Below are positions 20,843-62,283 of a stretch of 64,000 nucleotides of DNA, in pieces. Position 1 is the first letter of the stretch. The number at the start of each line of letters is the position of its first letter. The position numbers and the translations under genes are program-made. The notes below the pieces were generated by a model, which was not told the DNA's origin, ran no database searches, and worked only from the letters and a program-made list of their open reading frames with translations. Source of the stretch: a bacterium (lineage in GTDB: Bacteria > Bacteroidota > Ignavibacteria > Kapaibacteriales > UBA7675); contig JAUIKM010000020.1 of NCBI GenBank assembly GCA_030430495.1, positions 1 to 64,000 on the forward strand, given 5' to 3'.

Positions 20843-21546
20843 CGAATCTCCGTTTGTTTCCTCTTTGATTGCAGAATCGCGACTCCCACGCCGTTGCCGC
20901 TGCGCGCCTCGCTGCACTCGTCGACTTGCTGCCGGCTTCCTGATTCTCTTGTTCGTCATCGAGCCGCAAACCCGGAGTCTCCGAGTCTGTCGACAGCCTT
21001 CAAACGCACCGGCCCGACGTCTGCCGACAGTCCTCAAACCCGCGAGCCGCACGCTCAAAACCAGCTCGAAGACGCGAGACTCCGCTCCGCGTGACAAACA
21101 AAAAAGTCATGGAACAAGAGATGCCAAAGGCAGCTCGAAGTGCTCAGGCCGCCAATATACATCCTCGCGCCGGCATGCCCCTATAATGCGATGCTACCGG
21201 ACGCCGCGCCGACGGTGCATCAGGCGGCGACAGGCCGAGCCGACCCGTTCCACAGCACGCACAGAGAGCAAAAGTCTCGCGTGGATTGCGGACTCTCAGC
21301 CCCAATAACGACCAAAAACAGCCAAAAACTACCCAAAGCGCGCGGAAATCGCGGACCGCCAAAGCTCGCGTTGTGAATCATGTTGCGCAGCAGTATATTT
21401 GGTCGGTTTCTCGTTTTGACCGCAGTCGTATTTTTTTATCTGACTCAATCAGTTTGGGTCGGCGTCTCAGAGCGCCCAATGTGCAATGGCCCAACGCCGC
21501 GTTCGCGTGGGCGACCAATTTCAGCTTGATTCCCGCCAGTGAGCCG
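20843..21546. other. 704-bp divergent spacer
   Basis: Promoters for the 20842 (minus) and 21547 (plus) genes should lie here. Near 21093 is one copy of the TGAC-AAACAAAAAA-GTCA element, and near 20950 a degenerate TTGTTCGTC copy. An upstream extension of the kinase frame to 21286 exists but its composition is not protein-like. No other gene is supported. Confidence 0.5.
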
Positions 21547-23532
21547 ATGAGTGAAGTACGTGAAGAAGTCCGGACCGGCGCAAGTCGATCCGTTGAAGAA
21601 GAGCAGGTAAAGCAGCTCAACCGCAATGCCCGCAAATTGTCCAAAGGCAATCCCGAGCTGGCGGAGTCGCAGGCGCGTTCCGCCCAGAAACTGGCGCGAC
21701 GCCTGGGCATGACATATGAACTGGCCTACGCGCACAACGTGATCGGCATCATCCGCCTCGCGCAGTCCGACGCGGCCGGAGCGCATGAGGAAGCCGACGC
21801 GGCCCTCAAAATCAGCCGCATCACGCAGGACACGCGCAATATCTGGACTGCGCTCAAAATCCGTGGACGCGCCGCCACCATGACCGGCGACTATCACATG
21901 GCGCTGGAAGCCCTGCTCGAAAACCTGTCCATCCAGGAACGCACCGGCAACAAACAGGAGCTGTCCAAAGTCCTGATGGACCTGAGCCGCATCTACACGC
22001 TGCTCGAAGCGTTTTCCAGCGCGCTGGACTACTGCCTCAAGAGCCTGACGATCCGCCGCCAGCTGGGCAACCGCACCGACATCTCACTGGCGCTGAACAA
22101 CCTGGGGCTGATCTGCTCCGAAATCGGCGACCACGGCCAGGCGCTGGAATACTTCCTCGAATCGACCGAACTGCAAACAGTCTCGCCGGGCGATTCCCTC
22201 ATCTGCGGCACGGAGAACAACATATCACGCGCTTACCAGGCGCTCGGCGAGCTGGACGCCGCACTGCTCTTTGCTCAGCGCAGCCTCAAAAAATCGCGCG
22301 AATCCGGCAACCAATACGTCGAGTCGCTCGCTCTGCGCAGCTTCGGCGAAATCTGCATGGAACGCGGCCTGCAGGACGACGCGCTGCGCTACTTTGAACA
22401 GAGCCTCGACCTCTGCCGCCTCATCGGCGACAAACACGGCGCGGCGCAGACGCTGCACTCGATGGCCGTCCTCAGCCTGGAGTTGCAGCGGATCGACGAG
22501 GCCGAGGCGCGCCTGGCGGAGCTTGGCGAACTCGTCAAAGACCTGGGCCTGAAAAAGCTGGCGTTTGAGCTGGAATACACCTGCTCGCAGATCCACGCAC
22601 AACGCGGTGAGTACAAAGAAGCCTGGCGGCGACTCAACAATCACCACAAGCTGAAAGAAGCCTACTACGACAGCCGCGAGCAGAAACGCCTGCGCGACAT
22701 CCTCGTGCTGCGCCAGGTGGAAAGCTGGAGCAAACGCGTTGAAAATTACCGCCGCCACGTCGATGAGCTGGCGACCCTCAACGAGCGCCTGCAGGAATTA
22801 AACGAGGAAAAAAGCGAGTTCCTGGGCATCGCCGCCCACGACCTGAAAAATCCGCTCAGCGGCATCATGATGACGGCCGAGGTGCTCATCCACCAGTTTG
22901 AGCGCCTGGACGAATGCGGTATTAAACAACGCGCGGACGTCATCTACAATGCGGCGATGCGCATGAGCGACATTATCGGCAGCCTGCTCGATATCAACGC
23001 CATCGAGTCCGGCAGCATGCAGGTTAACATTTTCACCTTTCCGCTGGAACCCGTTCTGCGCGACCTGGTGCACAGCTGGGAGGAACGCGCACAGCACAAA
23101 GGCATTGCGATTACAACCTCGATCGAGCCGGCGACGATCGACGTGCGCGCCGACCGCGACATGCTGCACCGCGTGCTCGACAACCTGCTCTCCAATGCGA
23201 TCAAGTTTTCACAACCCGGCACTCAGGTGCAAATCCGCGCGGTGCTTCCCGAGGGAGGCGGCGTGTGTATCACCGTGGCGGACCAGGGGCCGGGACTGAC
23301 GGACGGCGACCACGAACGCATGTTCACCAAATTTGGGCGTTTAAGCGCCAAACCCACGGCCAACGAACACAGCACCGGTCTGGGCCTCTCGATTGTTAAA
23401 AAGCTGCTGGATCTGGTGGGCGGCGCGGTGCGCTGCAAAAGCACGCCGGGACGCGGCAGCAGTTTTATCGTTGAACTGCCCGGCGGTTCCGCCTGCACTG
23501 GGCGCATCTCCGGCGGTCACAAGGCAGGTTAA
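21547..23532 (+). CDS. cytoplasmic TPR-domain sensor histidine kinase
   Basis: 661 residues from the ATG at 21547, an uncertain start; the frame stays open upstream to 21286. No membrane segment or signal peptide is seen. Residues about 55-385 are tandem TPR repeats (for example SGNQYVESLALRSFGEIC, LGNRTDISLALNNLGLIC). A coiled coil (about 385-420) leads to the H-box FLGIAAHDLKNP with phospho-acceptor His431. The HATPase domain has the N-box DNLLSNAIKFS (about 544), G1 DQGPG (about 579) and G2 STGLGLSIVKK (about 612). It autophosphorylates and should pass phosphate to a response regulator, but no receiver or regulator gene is in the window. TPR-kinases of this kind usually sense through protein contacts. 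The operator-like array at 24001 lies downstream. Confidence 0.92.
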   Translation: MSEVREEVRTGASRSVEEEQVKQLNRNARKLSKGNPELAESQARSAQKLARRLGMTYELAYAHNVIGIIRLAQSDAAGAHEEADAALKISRITQDTRNIWTALKIRGRAATMTGDYHMALEALLENLSIQERTGNKQELSKVLMDLSRIYTLLEAFSSALDYCLKSLTIRRQLGNRTDISLALNNLGLICSEIGDHGQALEYFLESTELQTVSPGDSLICGTENNISRAYQALGELDAALLFAQRSLKKSRESGNQYVESLALRSFGEICMERGLQDDALRYFEQSLDLCRLIGDKHGAAQTLHSMAVLSLELQRIDEAEARLAELGELVKDLGLKKLAFELEYTCSQIHAQRGEYKEAWRRLNNHHKLKEAYYDSREQKRLRDILVLRQVESWSKRVENYRRHVDELATLNERLQELNEEKSEFLGIAAHDLKNPLSGIMMTAEVLIHQFERLDECGIKQRADVIYNAAMRMSDIIGSLLDINAIESGSMQVNIFTFPLEPVLRDLVHSWEERAQHKGIAITTSIEPATIDVRADRDMLHRVLDNLLSNAIKFSQPGTQVQIRAVLPEGGGVCITVADQGPGLTDGDHERMFTKFGRLSAKPTANEHSTGLGLSIVKKLLDLVGGAVRCKSTPGRGSSFIVELPGGSACTGRISGGHKAG

Positions 23533-23790
23533 ACTCTTCCTCCGCATCGTCGACATTCACCAACCGCGGACTGCGCAACAATTCCCCGCCGTCCCTTCCC
23601 CACCGCACCTGGAGAACAAGTCCCCGACGCCCGGTCCCGCTTAAAAACGGAGGTCCATGTACGACTTCATGATCGCTTTGCCGCAGGCTCAGAGTGAGCG
23701 GTGACGCCGTTCTGAATCGGGAGCCCTGCGGCAGGCTCTTTGATGTTCCTGCTCGTCGCGCAGAGCGACGTCGTCAGGTTGACAGTTTGT

Positions 23791-23892
23791 CGCCGGGCCG
23801 AGCGCCTGAAACGGCGGGACCTGTCGCCGGGCCGAGCGCCTGAAACGGCGGGACCTGTCGCCGGGCCGAGCGCCTGAAACGGCGGGACCTGT
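23791..23892. repeat. three tandem 34-bp repeats
   Basis: Identical 34-bp units start at 23791, 23825 and 23859 (beginning CGCCGGGCCGAGCGCC and ending CGGGACCTGT). Each unit contains CGCCG/CGGCG-type arms able to form a hairpin. No coding capacity is believed. Exact identity suggests recent expansion. Confidence 0.9.
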
Positions 23893-24000
23893 GAACAGAC
23901 GCCGAGACTTCGGGTTTGAAACCCGGCGACAAACAAGATGGGTTGGGAGAAAAAACTGCCGCAGGCAGGTTTTGAGGCTGTTGTGAGCGGTATAAGGAAA

Positions 24001-24070
24001 TCACCTAGCAGGATGTAGGGAATTCACCTAGACGTTTTTAAGGCATTCCCCTAGCCAGAATTAGGGGAAT
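24001..24070. promoter_or_regulatory. array of three 23-bp operator-like units
   Basis: TCACCTAG at 24001 and 24024 and TCCCCTAG at 24047 are spaced exactly 23 bp apart. Each is followed about 15 bp later by an inverted arm: TAGGGAAT (24016), the degenerate TAAGGCAT (24039) and TAGGGGAAT (24062). The last unit contains a perfect 9-bp inverted repeat, ATTCCCCTA/TAGGGGAAT. Regular spacing of about two helical turns is typical of cooperative binding of a dimeric regulator. It lies 468 bp after the TPR-kinase gene and 477 bp before the secreted propeller gene at 24547. The binding protein is unknown. Confidence 0.6.
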
Positions 24071-24546
24071 CTCCGATTGTGCAGGCGCAGTTTAAAACCT
24101 AATTTGGGCCAAGCAAACGACGCAAGTTTTCACTGCCCTTTGTTAACCACGTCTACAAAGCGATGCCGCACCCTGGAAAAACAATGAGAATTTTCCACAA
24201 CCTGCGATGTTGACATTTCTGTTAATTCCCGGTCGATCTCTCATCCGGTCGATCCGTCAGAAACAACAAACATCCGCTCGGACAAGGCCTGCTCCGCGCA
24301 CCAAGGCTCAGAAGCAGCGCTCCCGACGGGATTATCCCATTTGATGTAATTGCCATGTCCGTTGCCGTAAACGGACGCTATACTGCCACGCGCCTGTTAA
24401 ACGGCGTATTACACATAACCGCTCCATCGCCGGACGCACAAGTGCGCCCGCAGATTTGACATGTTCTTACTTAAACAAACCAGCATGCATAACCATGCAT
24501 GTATACATTTTTCACATACCCATTCACTATAATGGAGGTTCAGATC

Positions 24547-26340
24547 ATGCAGAAGAATCGCGTGATCCTGGCAGCACTTGCTTTTGGCTGCCTTACACTT
24601 ATTGCAAGCGAGCAGGCCATGTCCCAGCAATACTGGGAGCGCGGCGCAGGCGAACGCCTGCTGGAAAATGCGCATAAAGTTGTCAGCTCGGACGCCTTCC
24701 AGTGCGGGCCGGTGGCCATCGGCGGCACCAAGTCCTACGGCCAGGCCAACGTCTCCAACCCACCCAACGTTTATGTCACCGCATGGTCGCCCGACGGCAT
24801 CCTGCAGCGCGACTACGTGTTTGACGCGCAGTCCTGGGACGTCGACTATTCGATCGTGGCGCTCAACTCCGAATTTTCCGAGCCCGGTTTTGTCTGGACC
24901 ACGGGCGTGTTAAACCCGACGACGGGTTCCTACGACCTGGCCGTGGTGCGTTTTGACCTCTTCGGCGCTATTCAGTGGTCGGTTGCACTGGGCGGACTGG
25001 CCCCCGACGCCGGTACGTCTGTCATTCAACTGACGGCGGACTTCAACGGCGACATCGTCGTGGCCGGCATGACTGAAAGCTACGGCAACGGCACGACGCG
25101 GGACGGCGTCCTGGCGCGCCTGGATCAGAATACCGGCGCAATCGTCTGGGCCTTTGCCTACGGCGGACCGCAGAACGACGAACTCTACGCAGTTAAACAG
25201 GACGTTGTCGGGTTTAACGACTTCAGCCTGTACGCCGTTGGACAATCGAACAGTTTTAACACGCAGGGTGACGACGACGCCTGGCTTATCAACGTCGATG
25301 TCAATACCGGCGCGTTCAACTTCGGCTGGGTCTATGGCAACCTGGCCAACGACCGCGCCTACAACCTCATTCTGCATTCGGAAGATCCGAATCTGGGCGA
25401 GGCCGTCACGATCGTCGGTGAAACTTATTCTTTTGCCACGCAGAACTCCGACGCCTACGTGATCCGCACGGACGCCTTCGGCGCGCCCGCATGGCAACGC
25501 GCTTTTGATCTCTGGGGCGCAGCCGGCTGGGAAACCGCCTATGATGTCGCCGAGAGTGTGCAGTACGGTCCCGGCAACGTGGTAGTCGTCGGCCAGAGCA
25601 ACAACAGCGCCAACGCCCCGCGCGGCGAGGGTTTTGGACTTGAAATCGACTTCGGCGGCAACCTGCAAAGCGCCAACCGCGTGTACGGCGGCAGCGACTA
25701 CGAAACGATTCGCTCCATCACACAAAAGAATCAAGACGTCGCCGAACCCGGCTACTGGATGGCCGGCCAGACGCAGAGCTTCGGTCTCGGCGCGGGCGAT
25801 CAGTACATCCTTTCGACGGACTTCAACCTGGCGACGGGCAATGACACGGCGGGCAACGAGTGCGCCCCCGAGATTGATGTCAGTGAAGTTGATGCCTTCG
25901 GCGAAGTCGAAATTCGCGTCGATCCCCTGACAATTGAACCCGTCGAGTTCAGCATTCCCGACGCCACGGAAGGCGGCAAATACGTTGAAATCTGCAATGA
26001 GGAAGGTTTCTTCGGCATGGTGGATGAGAACTCCGGCGGCAGCGCGATCAGCCGTTCCGGCGCTGCCGCTCCGATGACCGGCAGCGACATTCAGGTCCAG
26101 GCGCATCCGAACCCGATCCAGATCGGCACGCCGCTGACGGTGGAAGTCAACTCGGGCCAGAATGAAAAACTGATGGTCGTGATCTCCGACCTGATGGGCC
26201 GCACGCTGGCGCGCAAAGTTGTCACTCCCGGCTCCGGCGCGGTGAGCTTCGCCACGAAATACTGGACGGCAGGCGCATACACCATTTCGGTCGGCAGCGG
26301 TGAACACATGCGTACCAGCCAGGTTATCCTGCACGACTGA
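24547..26340 (+). CDS. secreted beta-propeller protein with T9SS sorting domain
   Basis: 597 residues. The ATG at 24547 is chosen over upstream starts because GGAGG lies 7 bases before it and a signal peptide follows at once (about 5-27, ending QAMSQQ). Repeated blades carry GGxxxD, VVGQSNS, GGPQNDELYAV and similar motifs, like the SBBP/delta-60 propeller repeats seen in exported FCB proteins. About 440-500 is a spacer with two cysteine-containing segments (NECAP, EICNEEG). The C-terminal about 80 residues are a T9SS type A domain (AHPNPIQIG, ISDLMGRTL, TAGAYTISV). It is followed 75 bp later by a paralogue, and the pair may be one transcription unit. Exported; ligand unknown. Confidence 0.9.
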   Translation: MQKNRVILAALAFGCLTLIASEQAMSQQYWERGAGERLLENAHKVVSSDAFQCGPVAIGGTKSYGQANVSNPPNVYVTAWSPDGILQRDYVFDAQSWDVDYSIVALNSEFSEPGFVWTTGVLNPTTGSYDLAVVRFDLFGAIQWSVALGGLAPDAGTSVIQLTADFNGDIVVAGMTESYGNGTTRDGVLARLDQNTGAIVWAFAYGGPQNDELYAVKQDVVGFNDFSLYAVGQSNSFNTQGDDDAWLINVDVNTGAFNFGWVYGNLANDRAYNLILHSEDPNLGEAVTIVGETYSFATQNSDAYVIRTDAFGAPAWQRAFDLWGAAGWETAYDVAESVQYGPGNVVVVGQSNNSANAPRGEGFGLEIDFGGNLQSANRVYGGSDYETIRSITQKNQDVAEPGYWMAGQTQSFGLGAGDQYILSTDFNLATGNDTAGNECAPEIDVSEVDAFGEVEIRVDPLTIEPVEFSIPDATEGGKYVEICNEEGFFGMVDENSGGSAISRSGAAAPMTGSDIQVQAHPNPIQIGTPLTVEVNSGQNEKLMVVISDLMGRTLARKVVTPGSGAVSFATKYWTAGAYTISVGSGEHMRTSQVILHD

Positions 26341-26415
26341 TGTTGTTTAACCACACATAATCCATTACCAACAATCATTCTTTAACAACTGAAATACAAA
26401 CACAGAGTGTTAACA

Positions 26416-27918
26416 ATGAAGACCAAACTCAATACATTCAAAAACCTGTGCCTCGCGGCCGGTTCTTTTTTAACTGCTGCGATCCTGATTGCGCCGACGG
26501 CATCCGCGCAACCGTGGGAACGCGCCATCGGCGGTCCCCAGCAGGAAAACACTTTTGACGTCAAAACCAGCGATCAATTCGGCGGCGCGATTCAGATCGG
26601 CGGCACCTGGACCTACGGCGCCACCTTCAGCCCCAACCCGCCGAACGTCTACGTCAGCCAGATCGCGAACAACGGCAACGTCGCCCAGGGCATGGTGTTT
26701 GAAGCCAACGGCTGGGACGTGGACGCCGACGTGGTCGAATACGAAGACCAGATCGTCTGGACCACCGGCGTGTTTAACTCGCTGACGGGCAGCTTTGACA
26801 TCGCCGTTGTCTCCGCCGACCAGGGCGGCGGCATTCTCTGGACGGTGTGGTTCGGCGGTTTCCAGCGCGACGGCTCCACGAGTATTATCGCTACGGAAGA
26901 CGGCAACTTTATCGTGGCCGGTTACGTCGAGAGCAACACCTTCGGCGGCCGCGACGGCTTCCTGGCCAGCATCAACAACGGCGGCGGCGTGAACTGGGCG
27001 TTTAACTACGGCAGCACGGGCAACGACGAACTGTGGTCCGTAATTGAATCGATCGACGGCAGCGGCGAAATCTACGCCATCGGATATTCCGACGGTCCCG
27101 GCTCGGCCGGCGGCGACGATGTCTGGCTGCTGGCGGTGGACAACGCCGGCGGCGTCGCCTACTCCAACCTCTACGGCGGCGCGGCCAACGACCGCGGTTT
27201 CGACATCGTGATGAACGACGCCGTCTGCGATCCCGAGCTCACTCTTACGCTCGTCGGTGAAACCTGGAGTTTTGGCGGCCAGCGCAACGACATCTTTGTG
27301 ATCCGCACTCTGCCTGGCGCGGGCAACACGCCGCAGTGGCAGTTCGCCTATGAGATTTTCACGGCGGGCAGCTGGGACGTCGGCTACGGCATCACGGACG
27401 CGCTCAACACGAACTTCTCGAATGTGGTCATCAGTGGCCAGACCAACTCGCTGGCCGGCACGGCCGTCCTCGGCGAGGGTTTTGCCTTTGAGCTGGGCCC
27501 CAACGGCGGCAACCCGCTGTGGACGCGCACTTACGGCGGCGGGCAATACGAAACGCTGCGCGGATTGTCCACGCGCAGCGGCGGCTACTTCACCGTCGGC
27601 CAGACGCTGTCCTACGGTGCGGGCGGCGGCGATCAATACCTGCTGGCGCTCGACGGCATCGGCGGCACGGGCACGCGTTTCGGCACGGCCTGCGCCACGC
27701 AGCAGTTCCCGAACTTCGTCTCGGTGGACGTGATGACGGAACTCGAGACGCAGCAGCAGGACTACCCGCAGATCGAAGGTATCGATCCGGTCGTCAGCTT
27801 TGAAGGCGATCTGACGGAAATCTGTACGCCCGGTCTGGCGCCTCCCCCGCCGTTCGAGCAGCCGATCCAGTTGGAGCGCACCTACGAGCAGAACCCCGGC
27901 AACGACGGCACGAATTAA
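26416..27918 (+). CDS. secreted beta-propeller paralogue without T9SS tail
   Basis: 500 residues from the ATG at 26416. The signal peptide (about 8-32) ends ASAQPW. It shares with the preceding protein the WERAxGG start of the mature part, GGTWTYG, WTTGVFN, VVGETWSF-type blades and the GGGDQYLLA segment. It stops after a short Pro-rich end (PGLAPPPPFEQP), where the paralogue continues into a sorting domain, so no T9SS tail is present. It may be periplasmic, released by another route, or a partner of the first protein. The stop is followed by a good terminator, with no sign of a frameshift near the end. Confidence 0.88.
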   Translation: MKTKLNTFKNLCLAAGSFLTAAILIAPTASAQPWERAIGGPQQENTFDVKTSDQFGGAIQIGGTWTYGATFSPNPPNVYVSQIANNGNVAQGMVFEANGWDVDADVVEYEDQIVWTTGVFNSLTGSFDIAVVSADQGGGILWTVWFGGFQRDGSTSIIATEDGNFIVAGYVESNTFGGRDGFLASINNGGGVNWAFNYGSTGNDELWSVIESIDGSGEIYAIGYSDGPGSAGGDDVWLLAVDNAGGVAYSNLYGGAANDRGFDIVMNDAVCDPELTLTLVGETWSFGGQRNDIFVIRTLPGAGNTPQWQFAYEIFTAGSWDVGYGITDALNTNFSNVVISGQTNSLAGTAVLGEGFAFELGPNGGNPLWTRTYGGGQYETLRGLSTRSGGYFTVGQTLSYGAGGGDQYLLALDGIGGTGTRFGTACATQQFPNFVSVDVMTELETQQQDYPQIEGIDPVVSFEGDLTEICTPGLAPPPPFEQPIQLERTYEQNPGNDGTN

Positions 27919-42994: not shown

Positions 42995-44017
42995 TCAGCG
43001 CGGTTCAACGGGCGGAATCGTCGGCTGAGCGGGCGCGGGGTCGGGATCGACCGGCGGAACGGTCGGCACTGCCGGTTCAACGACCGGCTCGCTCGGCGGA
43101 ACGGTCGGTATCGACGGTTTAACGACCGGTTCGCTCGGCGGAACGGCGGGCACTGTCGGTTCAACGACCGGTTCGCTCGGCGGAACGGAGGGCTGCGCGG
43201 GATCCTTTTGCGGTTCTACCGGCGGCACTGTCGGCAGCGGATTGGCCGCCCCCGGCTCGGCGACCGCGGGAGACACCTGCAACGGCGGCTCCTGACCGAC
43301 TTCCGACAGAATTTCTTTGGCTTCCGCGACGACCTTTTGTACTTCGCCCGGCGGGGCAAACCGACAGAGAACCAACTTTTTGTCCTGGTCGCGGAACCAG
43401 GTGGTTCCCATCATGTCGATGTCGACAACGCTGACCGACAGCTCGGGGAATTTACGCGTGGTCTCCTCGATCTCGCGGCTCAGATCACCGCCTTTGAGCG
43501 TCGCCAGCACGCCGTCGGGGCGCAGCAGGGGCAGCGTCCAGGAAGCCAGCTGCACGAGCGGAGCCACGGCGCGGGCGGCCACCATGTCAAAGGTGCCGCG
43601 AAATTGTTTGTCATCCACCAGCGCCTCGGCGCGGATGGTCTTGGCGCCGATGTGACGCATGCCGGTGTGTTTGGCCAGCATGTCCGTCACTTTAACTTTT
43701 TTGGCGATCGAATCGACCAGCATGACGTAGAGGTCGGGCCGCGCAATTTTCATCGGGATACCGGGGAAACCGCCGCCGGTGCCGACGTCGATAACGCGCG
43801 CTTTGGGGCGCAGTTCGACGTATTTGAGGATGGTCAATGAATGCAGGATATGGCGTTCGTAAACGTGTTCCATGTCCTGACGCGAGATGAGGTTGACGCG
43901 TTTGTTCCACTTGATCAACTCGTCGTGGTAGCGCTCCATCGCCTGCATCTGTTCAGGTTCAAGCACAATGCCGTCGGTGGCACAGGTTGTCCAGAACGTG
44001 ACTGCATCCATAGTCAT
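42995..44017 (-). CDS. rsmG: 16S rRNA m7G527 methyltransferase with a proline-rich C-terminal tail
   Basis: 340 residues, against about 210 usual for the family. Residues 1-221 are a complete RsmG: FWTTCATDGIVLEPEQM, KWNKRVNLISR (36-46), RHILHSL (55-61) and the SAM loop VIDVGTGGGFPGIP (75-88). It methylates N7 of G527 of 16S rRNA, a change linked to streptomycin sensitivity. Residues 222-340 are added: a short helical linker, then VPPSEPVV-type repeats rich in Pro, Glu and Val. No stop or frameshift separates the two parts. The tail is likely disordered and has no counterpart that I know of in RsmG. Alternative starts at 44017 and 44011 (MTM). Confidence 0.93.
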   Translation of the reverse strand: MTMDAVTFWTTCATDGIVLEPEQMQAMERYHDELIKWNKRVNLISRQDMEHVYERHILHSLTILKYVELRPKARVIDVGTGGGFPGIPMKIARPDLYVMLVDSIAKKVKVTDMLAKHTGMRHIGAKTIRAEALVDDKQFRGTFDMVAARAVAPLVQLASWTLPLLRPDGVLATLKGGDLSREIEETTRKFPELSVSVVDIDMMGTTWFRDQDKKLVLCRFAPPGEVQKVVAEAKEILSEVGQEPPLQVSPAVAEPGAANPLPTVPPVEPQKDPAQPSVPPSEPVVEPTVPAVPPSEPVVKPSIPTVPPSEPVVEPAVPTVPPVDPDPAPAQPTIPPVEPR

Positions 44018-55806: not shown

Positions 55807-55906
55807 TTTTTTGGCGTTCAGGTGTTTTTTGGCGTTCAGGTGTTTTTGGGCGTTCAGGTGTTTTTGGGCGTTCAGGTGTTTTTGGGCGTTCAGGTGTTTT
55901 TGGGCG
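55807..55906. repeat. 18-bp tandem repeats, five full copies plus a partial
   Basis: Units TTTTTGGGCGTTCAGGTG start at 55807, 55825, 55843, 55861 and 55879, with a partial sixth from 55897. The first two have TTTTTTGGCG in place of TTTTTGGGCG. They begin about 20 bp after the stop codon of the membrane-wHTH gene. Read on the other strand they would encode a KTPERP-type hexapeptide, but no start or coding context supports that. Confidence 0.9.
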
Positions 55907-61984: not shown

Positions 61985-62283
61985 ATTGCGGCGTAAGTTG
62001 ATCTTCGATCTGAGTTGATTGTGCACTGATTGATTGTGGCGGTGAGTGATCTTCGATCTGACTTGTAATTGGACAAACAAACATTGGCACTTGACTGTTT
62101 GAGCCGCTGATTGATTGTGGCGGTGAGTGATCTTCGATCTGACTTGTAATTGGACAAACAAACATTGGCACTTGACTGTTTGAGTCGCTGATTGTTTGTG
62201 GCGGTGAGTGATCTTCGATCTGACTTGTAATTGGACAAACAAACATTGGCCCTTGACTGTTTGAGCCGCTGATTGTTTGTGGT
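61985..62283. repeat. 81-bp tandem repeats, three full copies plus a degenerate one
   Basis: Units begin with GGTGAGTGATCTTCGATCTG at 62041, 62122 and 62203, exactly 81 bp apart, with one or two base differences. A worn partial copy precedes them from about 61985. Each unit contains GGACAAACAAACATTGG, the same ACAAACAA core found in dispersed spacer elements elsewhere. Confidence 0.92.

Follow-up and report, generated by a model that had tools for sequence, protein, structure and literature searches.

A phased array of palindromic sites at a predicted activator-controlled promoter for exported propeller genes in a Kapaibacteriales bacterium

In the window analysed here, a 64,000-nucleotide stretch of Kapaibacteriales DNA, we observed four 15-bp palindromes at exact 23-bp steps (positions 23993–24076, consensus TMAGRAAWTYYCYKA), followed directly by predicted promoter elements and by genes for exported propeller proteins. 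This arrangement is probably an activator-controlled promoter, in which four head-to-head dimers of a NarL/FixJ-type regulator with a LuxR-type helix-turn-helix (HTH) domain would occupy the four palindromes. Arrays of the same kind appear to define a regulon that is conserved in the genome of the window (G000), in a related genus (G002) and, with fewer units, in another family (G011).

The palindromic array and its predicted promoter

The four units, which are symmetric and were assigned no strand, lie at 23993–24007 (D1, TAAGGAAATCACCTA), 24016–24030 (D2, TAGGGAATTCACCTA), 24039–24053 (D3, TAAGGCATTCCCCTA) and 24062–24076 (D4, TAGGGGAATCTCCGA). D1, a predicted dimer site 23 bp from D2, matches at all eight core positions, and no fifth unit was found 5' of it, the score falling there from 8/8 to 3/8. 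D2 was recognised by symmetric-unit scoring and D3 by unit scoring together with a pattern spanning D3, D4 and the promoter, while D4 abuts the predicted −33 element. A preliminary description of this region had reported three 23-bp units at 24001–24069; these are present as described, but the sequence is more naturally read as 15-bp palindromes, four of which run from 23993. The score for triplets of period 23 reaches its maximum about 10 bp 5' of the start reported there, and the strongest symmetric units coincide with the junctions between those 23-bp units. The unit pattern lies far above chance, with four matches in the window at up to three mismatches compared with 0.14 in shuffles, and a weight matrix built from G002 promoters alone scores 69.7 bits at the window array (23993), the best scores in 60 shuffled windows having a mean of −39.8 (s.d. 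4.8) and a maximum of −25.7.

Directly after D4, the trinucleotide TTG (24077–24079, plus strand) forms a predicted −33 element, as it does in most of 21 aligned promoters, and the TCCGA-TTG end of D4 is seen again at many sister promoters. The predicted −7 element, TAATTTG (24100–24106, plus strand, TAnnTTTG type), is positioned 20 bp past the TTG, a spacing that is constant at all promoters and has no match in controls. The primary promoters of Bacteroidota (sigma-ABfr) carry TTTG at −33 and TAnnTTTG at −7 (PMC7366714). Across the aligned set, the array promoters, as predicted from sequence, show TTG separated by a constant distance from TA(nn)TT(T)G; they resemble sigma-ABfr promoters in that TTG is followed by TAnnTTG 20 bp on. 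They differ in two ways: D4 runs at its end straight into the −33 element, and the −7 element frequently departs from consensus, which activator-dependent promoters would be expected to show. A sigma-70-type promoter was sought in the spacer before the propeller genes and not found. These phased units with predicted promoter elements directly behind them are in line with the multi-site operator proposed initially.

Transcription would start near 24113 and run through a leader of about 430 nt into the two propeller genes. The predicted leader (24108–24546, plus strand), placed by the position of the promoter, could be a 5' untranslated region or a short RNA followed by a gene; it contains a weak hairpin (24483–24502, −9.6 kcal/mol) and no terminator comparable to those of the array RNAs described below, which makes a long 5' leader the likelier reading. 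The product of the first target gene (24547–26340, plus strand) is an SBBP-like propeller, exported and bearing a T9SS-type sorting domain at its C terminus (TIGR04183, with a score just under the cutoff), and the probable operon partner of this gene encodes a second propeller (26407–27918, plus strand) that is 41% identical to the first; the array thus precedes the exported propeller genes at 24547–27918, as previously described. Upstream of the array lies a gene for a TPR-HisKA-HATPase histidine kinase (21286–23532, plus strand), and a 34-bp GC-rich tandem repeat (3.1 copies, 23788–23892) is located between the two. Further tandem repeats of the window are found at 62026–62282 (81 bp, 3.2 copies, 97%), 55807–55906 (18 bp, 5.6 copies) and 43052–43188 (42 bp, 3.3 copies).

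Related arrays, their target genes and predicted RNAs

The 23-bp unit of the preliminary description is nearly unique in a genome-wide search, its other matches being at or near the control level, a result of the less conserved register chosen for it; in the corrected register, the search of the genome that had been suggested does yield the regulon. One of its second-tier matches, at G000:C63:11875, is found past the 3' end of a gene for a LuxR-type response regulator, and this locus too carries an array of four units, which closes with a matching end of the form TCCGATTG-N20-TAGTTTG. In the order-wide search set of 123 genomes (draft assemblies), a three-unit pattern matched in G000 and G002 only, its reversed control giving two matches, both in G454. 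The D3-D4-promoter pattern, for which overlapping matches within one array were each counted, gave nine matches in G000 and 14 in G002, with none in G001, a genome of the same family, when these three genomes were searched at up to three mismatches. At up to two mismatches in all 123 genomes, it gave six in G000, 13 in G002 and 11 in G011, with none in the remaining 120 genomes of the order and none in the controls of either search.

Alignment of 21 distinct promoters from G000 and G002 showed four units in 10, three in two and two in nine. Units additional to the search pattern lie 46 bp (12/21) and 69 bp (10/21) 5' of D4, with stray matches only at other distances, and the arrays of G011 consist of two or three units, whose halves read TCAG/CTTA. 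A DNA search with the array region in 60 relatives returned the region itself as the only significant match, because the units are too degenerate, and CCTA-TAGG sites were not found at the G002 propeller locus, because the sites there have TCAG/CTTA/CTGA halves, which the corrected pattern recovered. Phylum-wide, the strict CCTA/TAGG grammar gave chance matches in coding sequence, with controls equal; in other phyla, non-repetitive matches to the bare grammar barely exceeded the chance estimate (about two), and viral contigs gave no informative match.

Neither outcome that would have refuted the preliminary description was observed: the D3-D4-promoter pattern also occurs at promoters of further surface-protein genes in the genome, and the sites are kept in sister genomes, including before the G002 homologues of the propellers (41% and 42% identical), both of which are preceded by arrays (C141a and C141b). 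Other targets in G000 and G002 comprise exported proteins (C71/C110, C124, C75), propeller-like exported proteins (C51, C151, C160) and a TonB-plug protein (C155). In G002, a TPR-protein gene has an array (C97) before it, and the G011 arrays (L209, L211–L218) precede mostly exported proteins. An FG-GAP/UnbV-type gene stands behind an array in both genera (G000 C63, G002 C142). In G000, this FG-GAP/UnbV_ASPIC gene has a four-unit array promoter. Behind it come two unassigned genes and then genes for a DUF1702 protein and a ketosynthase (L147 6276–13001, corresponding to G000:C63 at about 21.3–28.0 kb), and the whole forms an enediyne-type polyketide cassette; DUF1702 proteins have been drawn beside enediyne polyketide synthases (PMC7692728). 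In G000 and G002, the predicted leaders of protein-coding targets are long, spanning about 150–850 nt when counted from the −7 box up to the first open reading frame listed.

At three orthologous array loci in G000 and G002, no gene is evident directly downstream. The first (C63a/C142a; L135 6370–6830, minus strand) lies 3' of the regulator gene, the second (C21/C39; L184/L183) is convergent with pyrF, and the third (C64/C119; L200/L205) combines an array promoter with a conserved 3' block. These loci are predicted to encode terminated non-coding RNAs of about 350–420 nt: conserved 3' blocks are found 345–430 nt past the −7 box (blastn E values 1e-29, 4e-9 and 1e-8), each block ends with a strong hairpin (−19.8 to −24.3 kcal/mol) and a T-tract, with TTTTAAA in five of six, and the stems show compensatory changes between the genera (G-C to A-U in C63a/C142a, A-U to G-C in C21/C39 and G-C to A-U in C64/C119). 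At the conserved end of the C63/C142 RNA, a small-protein frame (MPQSL..SIDPISLC) stays open in both genera, yet four of its six changed codons are non-synonymous, whereas changes in the terminator stem preserve pairing, so that this end is preferably read as RNA. An Rfam scan at gathering score, which left out the C21, C64 and G002 C119 loci, returned only a tRNA of the window, and CsrA-type GGA motifs in the array RNAs occur near the shuffled expectation, with no clear enrichment.

At least 7 nt complementary to an RNA loop are present in nine of 19 leaders, compared with a mean of 4.6 and a maximum of nine in 60 shuffles, so that pairing between RNAs and leaders is a weak lead only. One could imagine, speculatively, a coherent circuit in which a pseudo-receiver regulator controls both the surface-protein genes with long leaders and the three RNAs of about 350–420 nt, the conserved terminator loop of one RNA (GUGGCAGUGGG) pairing with leader sites that read CACUGCC; the regulator would then both switch on the mRNAs and tune them by way of the RNA; we regard this extension as rather unlikely.

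The linked regulator and alternative readings

NarL/FixJ proteins bind as dimers on inverted half-sites. On the window array, one head-to-head dimer would sit on each palindrome, and the 23-bp period, which spaces half-sites about 11.5 bp apart, would align the dimers along more or less the same helical face. The last dimer, on D4, would abut the −33 box and help the primary sigma factor to open the promoter; the merging of D4 into the −33 element would suit a direct interaction with sigma or the alpha-CTD. The array could instead repress, which is less probable given that its units lie upstream of the promoter elements and end at the −33 box. Elsewhere, the same switch would drive the other exported proteins, the UnbV-DUF1702-ketosynthase operon and the three terminated RNAs.

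The candidate binder is the GacA/UvrY-like NarL/FixJ-type response regulator encoded at G000:C63:12037-12663 and G002:C142:14413-15042, since an array lies directly 3' of its gene in both genera. It is 82% identical between G000 and G002, whereas the propellers and the kinase are only 40–42% identical. A DUF885-like gene, related in both genera, flanks it on the side opposite the array, and beyond the array the downstream genes differ (recO-like in one genus, another gene in the other), suggesting that regulator, array and RNA travel together. Its sequence combines a receiver domain (PF00072, 80.9 bits) with a GerE/LuxR HTH domain (PF00196, 64.4 bits); the best of 93 NCBIfam matches is NF007018 (UvrY/SirA/GacA) at 139 bits, below the curated cutoff of 280, and the closest solved structures are VraR and NarL. 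The receiver of both genera has VADGH at the DD position of homologues, the second acidic residue being replaced by glycine, and LSID at the site of their conserved lysine, here isoleucine; the complete phosphorylation site (DD, D, T/S, K) is not present, and the published definition of a pseudo-receiver (PMC12632262) fits this incomplete domain. Activation by this regulator would therefore presumably proceed without classical phosphorylation. Adjoining arrays were absent from 28 distant homologues of the regulator in the order.

It is possible, although we consider it unlikely, that a different NarL/FixJ-type regulator of G000 binds the arrays and that the C63 array drives only its local RNA; the array beside the regulator gene may indeed be only the promoter of the RNA encoded there. 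G000 has 38 matches to the LuxR-type HTH (GerE), and G011 has arrays without a close C63 regulator, its nearest regulators being only 35–39% identical over aligned positions; in that genome, or indeed in all three, the binder may thus be a different NarL-type protein. Against this stand the adjacency of regulator and array, kept in two genera, the unusual 82% conservation of the regulator, and G001, which has neither an array nor a close homologue of the regulator.

The binder could also be the phosphorylated partner of the adjacent TPR-HisKA kinase, the missing partner suggested in the preliminary description, and the kinase does lie directly upstream of the array, with a TPR-protein gene also behind the G002 array C97. 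This proposal now appears improbable: the linked regulator is encoded on another contig, its degenerate receiver (VADGH for DD, SID for the lysine) makes classical activation by the neighbouring kinase unlikely, TPR-HisKA kinases form a large family with 59 matches in G000, and the best G002 homologue of the kinase (C168, 40% identical) is near no array match. The adjacent kinase is probably outside the array circuit.

It is very improbable that the palindromes serve in the RNA, as hairpins or terminators behind the kinase gene, and not as protein sites; the third of the originally described units does form a perfect stem (−12 kcal/mol, z = −2.9), but the whole array on the plus strand folds no better than shuffles (z = −1.0), no U-tract follows it, and the 23-bp phasing and fixed promoter distance are repeated before unrelated genes. 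A tandem-repeat expansion or mobile-element relic with no regulatory role, which the nearby 34-bp repeat (23788–23892) and tandem repeats of similar grammar in Spirochaetaceae might suggest, can practically be dismissed, since the units vary in sequence except at the symmetric positions, flanks are unrelated from locus to locus, promoter spacing is fixed and the position before homologous genes is conserved.

Relation to known regulatory systems

Among the closest parallels to the predicted activator array is BvgA of Bordetella, which binds at Pfha and Pptx as head-to-head dimers every 22 bp, the last abutting the −35 element (PMC7250471); its strong site is TAAGAAATTTCCTA, with inverted half-sites of about 7 bp, TAAGAAA-TTTCCTA (PMC7250471). 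The array promoters likewise have inverted-repeat sites in a row, with about two helical turns per dimer and the last site abutting the −33/−35 box: two to four units stand at exact 23-bp steps with D4 against the TTG, for which head-to-head dimers and activation are predicted. They differ in their period of 23 instead of 22 bp, with one extra base at the dyad, in their Bacteroidota-type promoter, in the good consensus of every unit, where BvgA promoters combine one strong site with weak ones, and in the degenerate receiver of the linked regulator. The best reading is that of a phased activator array that would work like the BvgA sites at Pfha.

The linked regulator also recalls GacA, UvrY and SirA, as a NarL-type protein with presumed sites before several non-coding RNAs (compare RsmX/Y/Z and CsrB). 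The GacA site is TGTAAG-N6-CTTACA (PMC4950607), which the array sequence TAAG-N7-CTTA resembles, but the array consensus, TMAG-N7-CYKA, is one base longer and does not match it. Unlike in GacA systems, the sites form arrays of two to four units and also precede exported-protein genes, and the RNAs are longer (about 350–420 nt), without clear GGA enrichment; by score cutoff, site and GGA-rich small RNAs alike, the regulator falls short of a GacA/UvrY/SirA equivalog. It resembles BldM and WhiI of Streptomyces, orphan atypical NarL-type regulators (PMC4125116), and pseudo-receivers in general (PMC12632262) as a presumed DNA-binding regulator whose receiver active site is incomplete and whose gene has no kinase beside it, and is set apart from them by the phased four-unit arrays, the linked RNA genes and the exported propeller targets.

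Taken together, unit number, 23-bp phase and promoter distance would constitute a regulatory code readable from sequence alone, in bacteria with exported T9SS-type surface proteins and with a predicted regulon that includes an enediyne-type cassette and three RNAs. The linked regulator is a candidate natural case of a NarL-family protein that lacks a full phosphorylation site and acts through phased arrays.

Arrays matching the grammar were also found directly 3' of NarL-type regulators on one Ignavibacteriales and one Desulfobacter contig, as TAGG-N7-CCTA units at 23-bp steps (L062 5420–5500; L069 5386–5435). Units of the same form and step occur upstream of an flhD-like gene in Nitrosomonas (L067/L070) and of a hydroxyacyl-CoA dehydrogenase gene in Desulfoprunum (L072), and the Spirochaetaceae carry tandem repeats with a grammar similar to that of the array.
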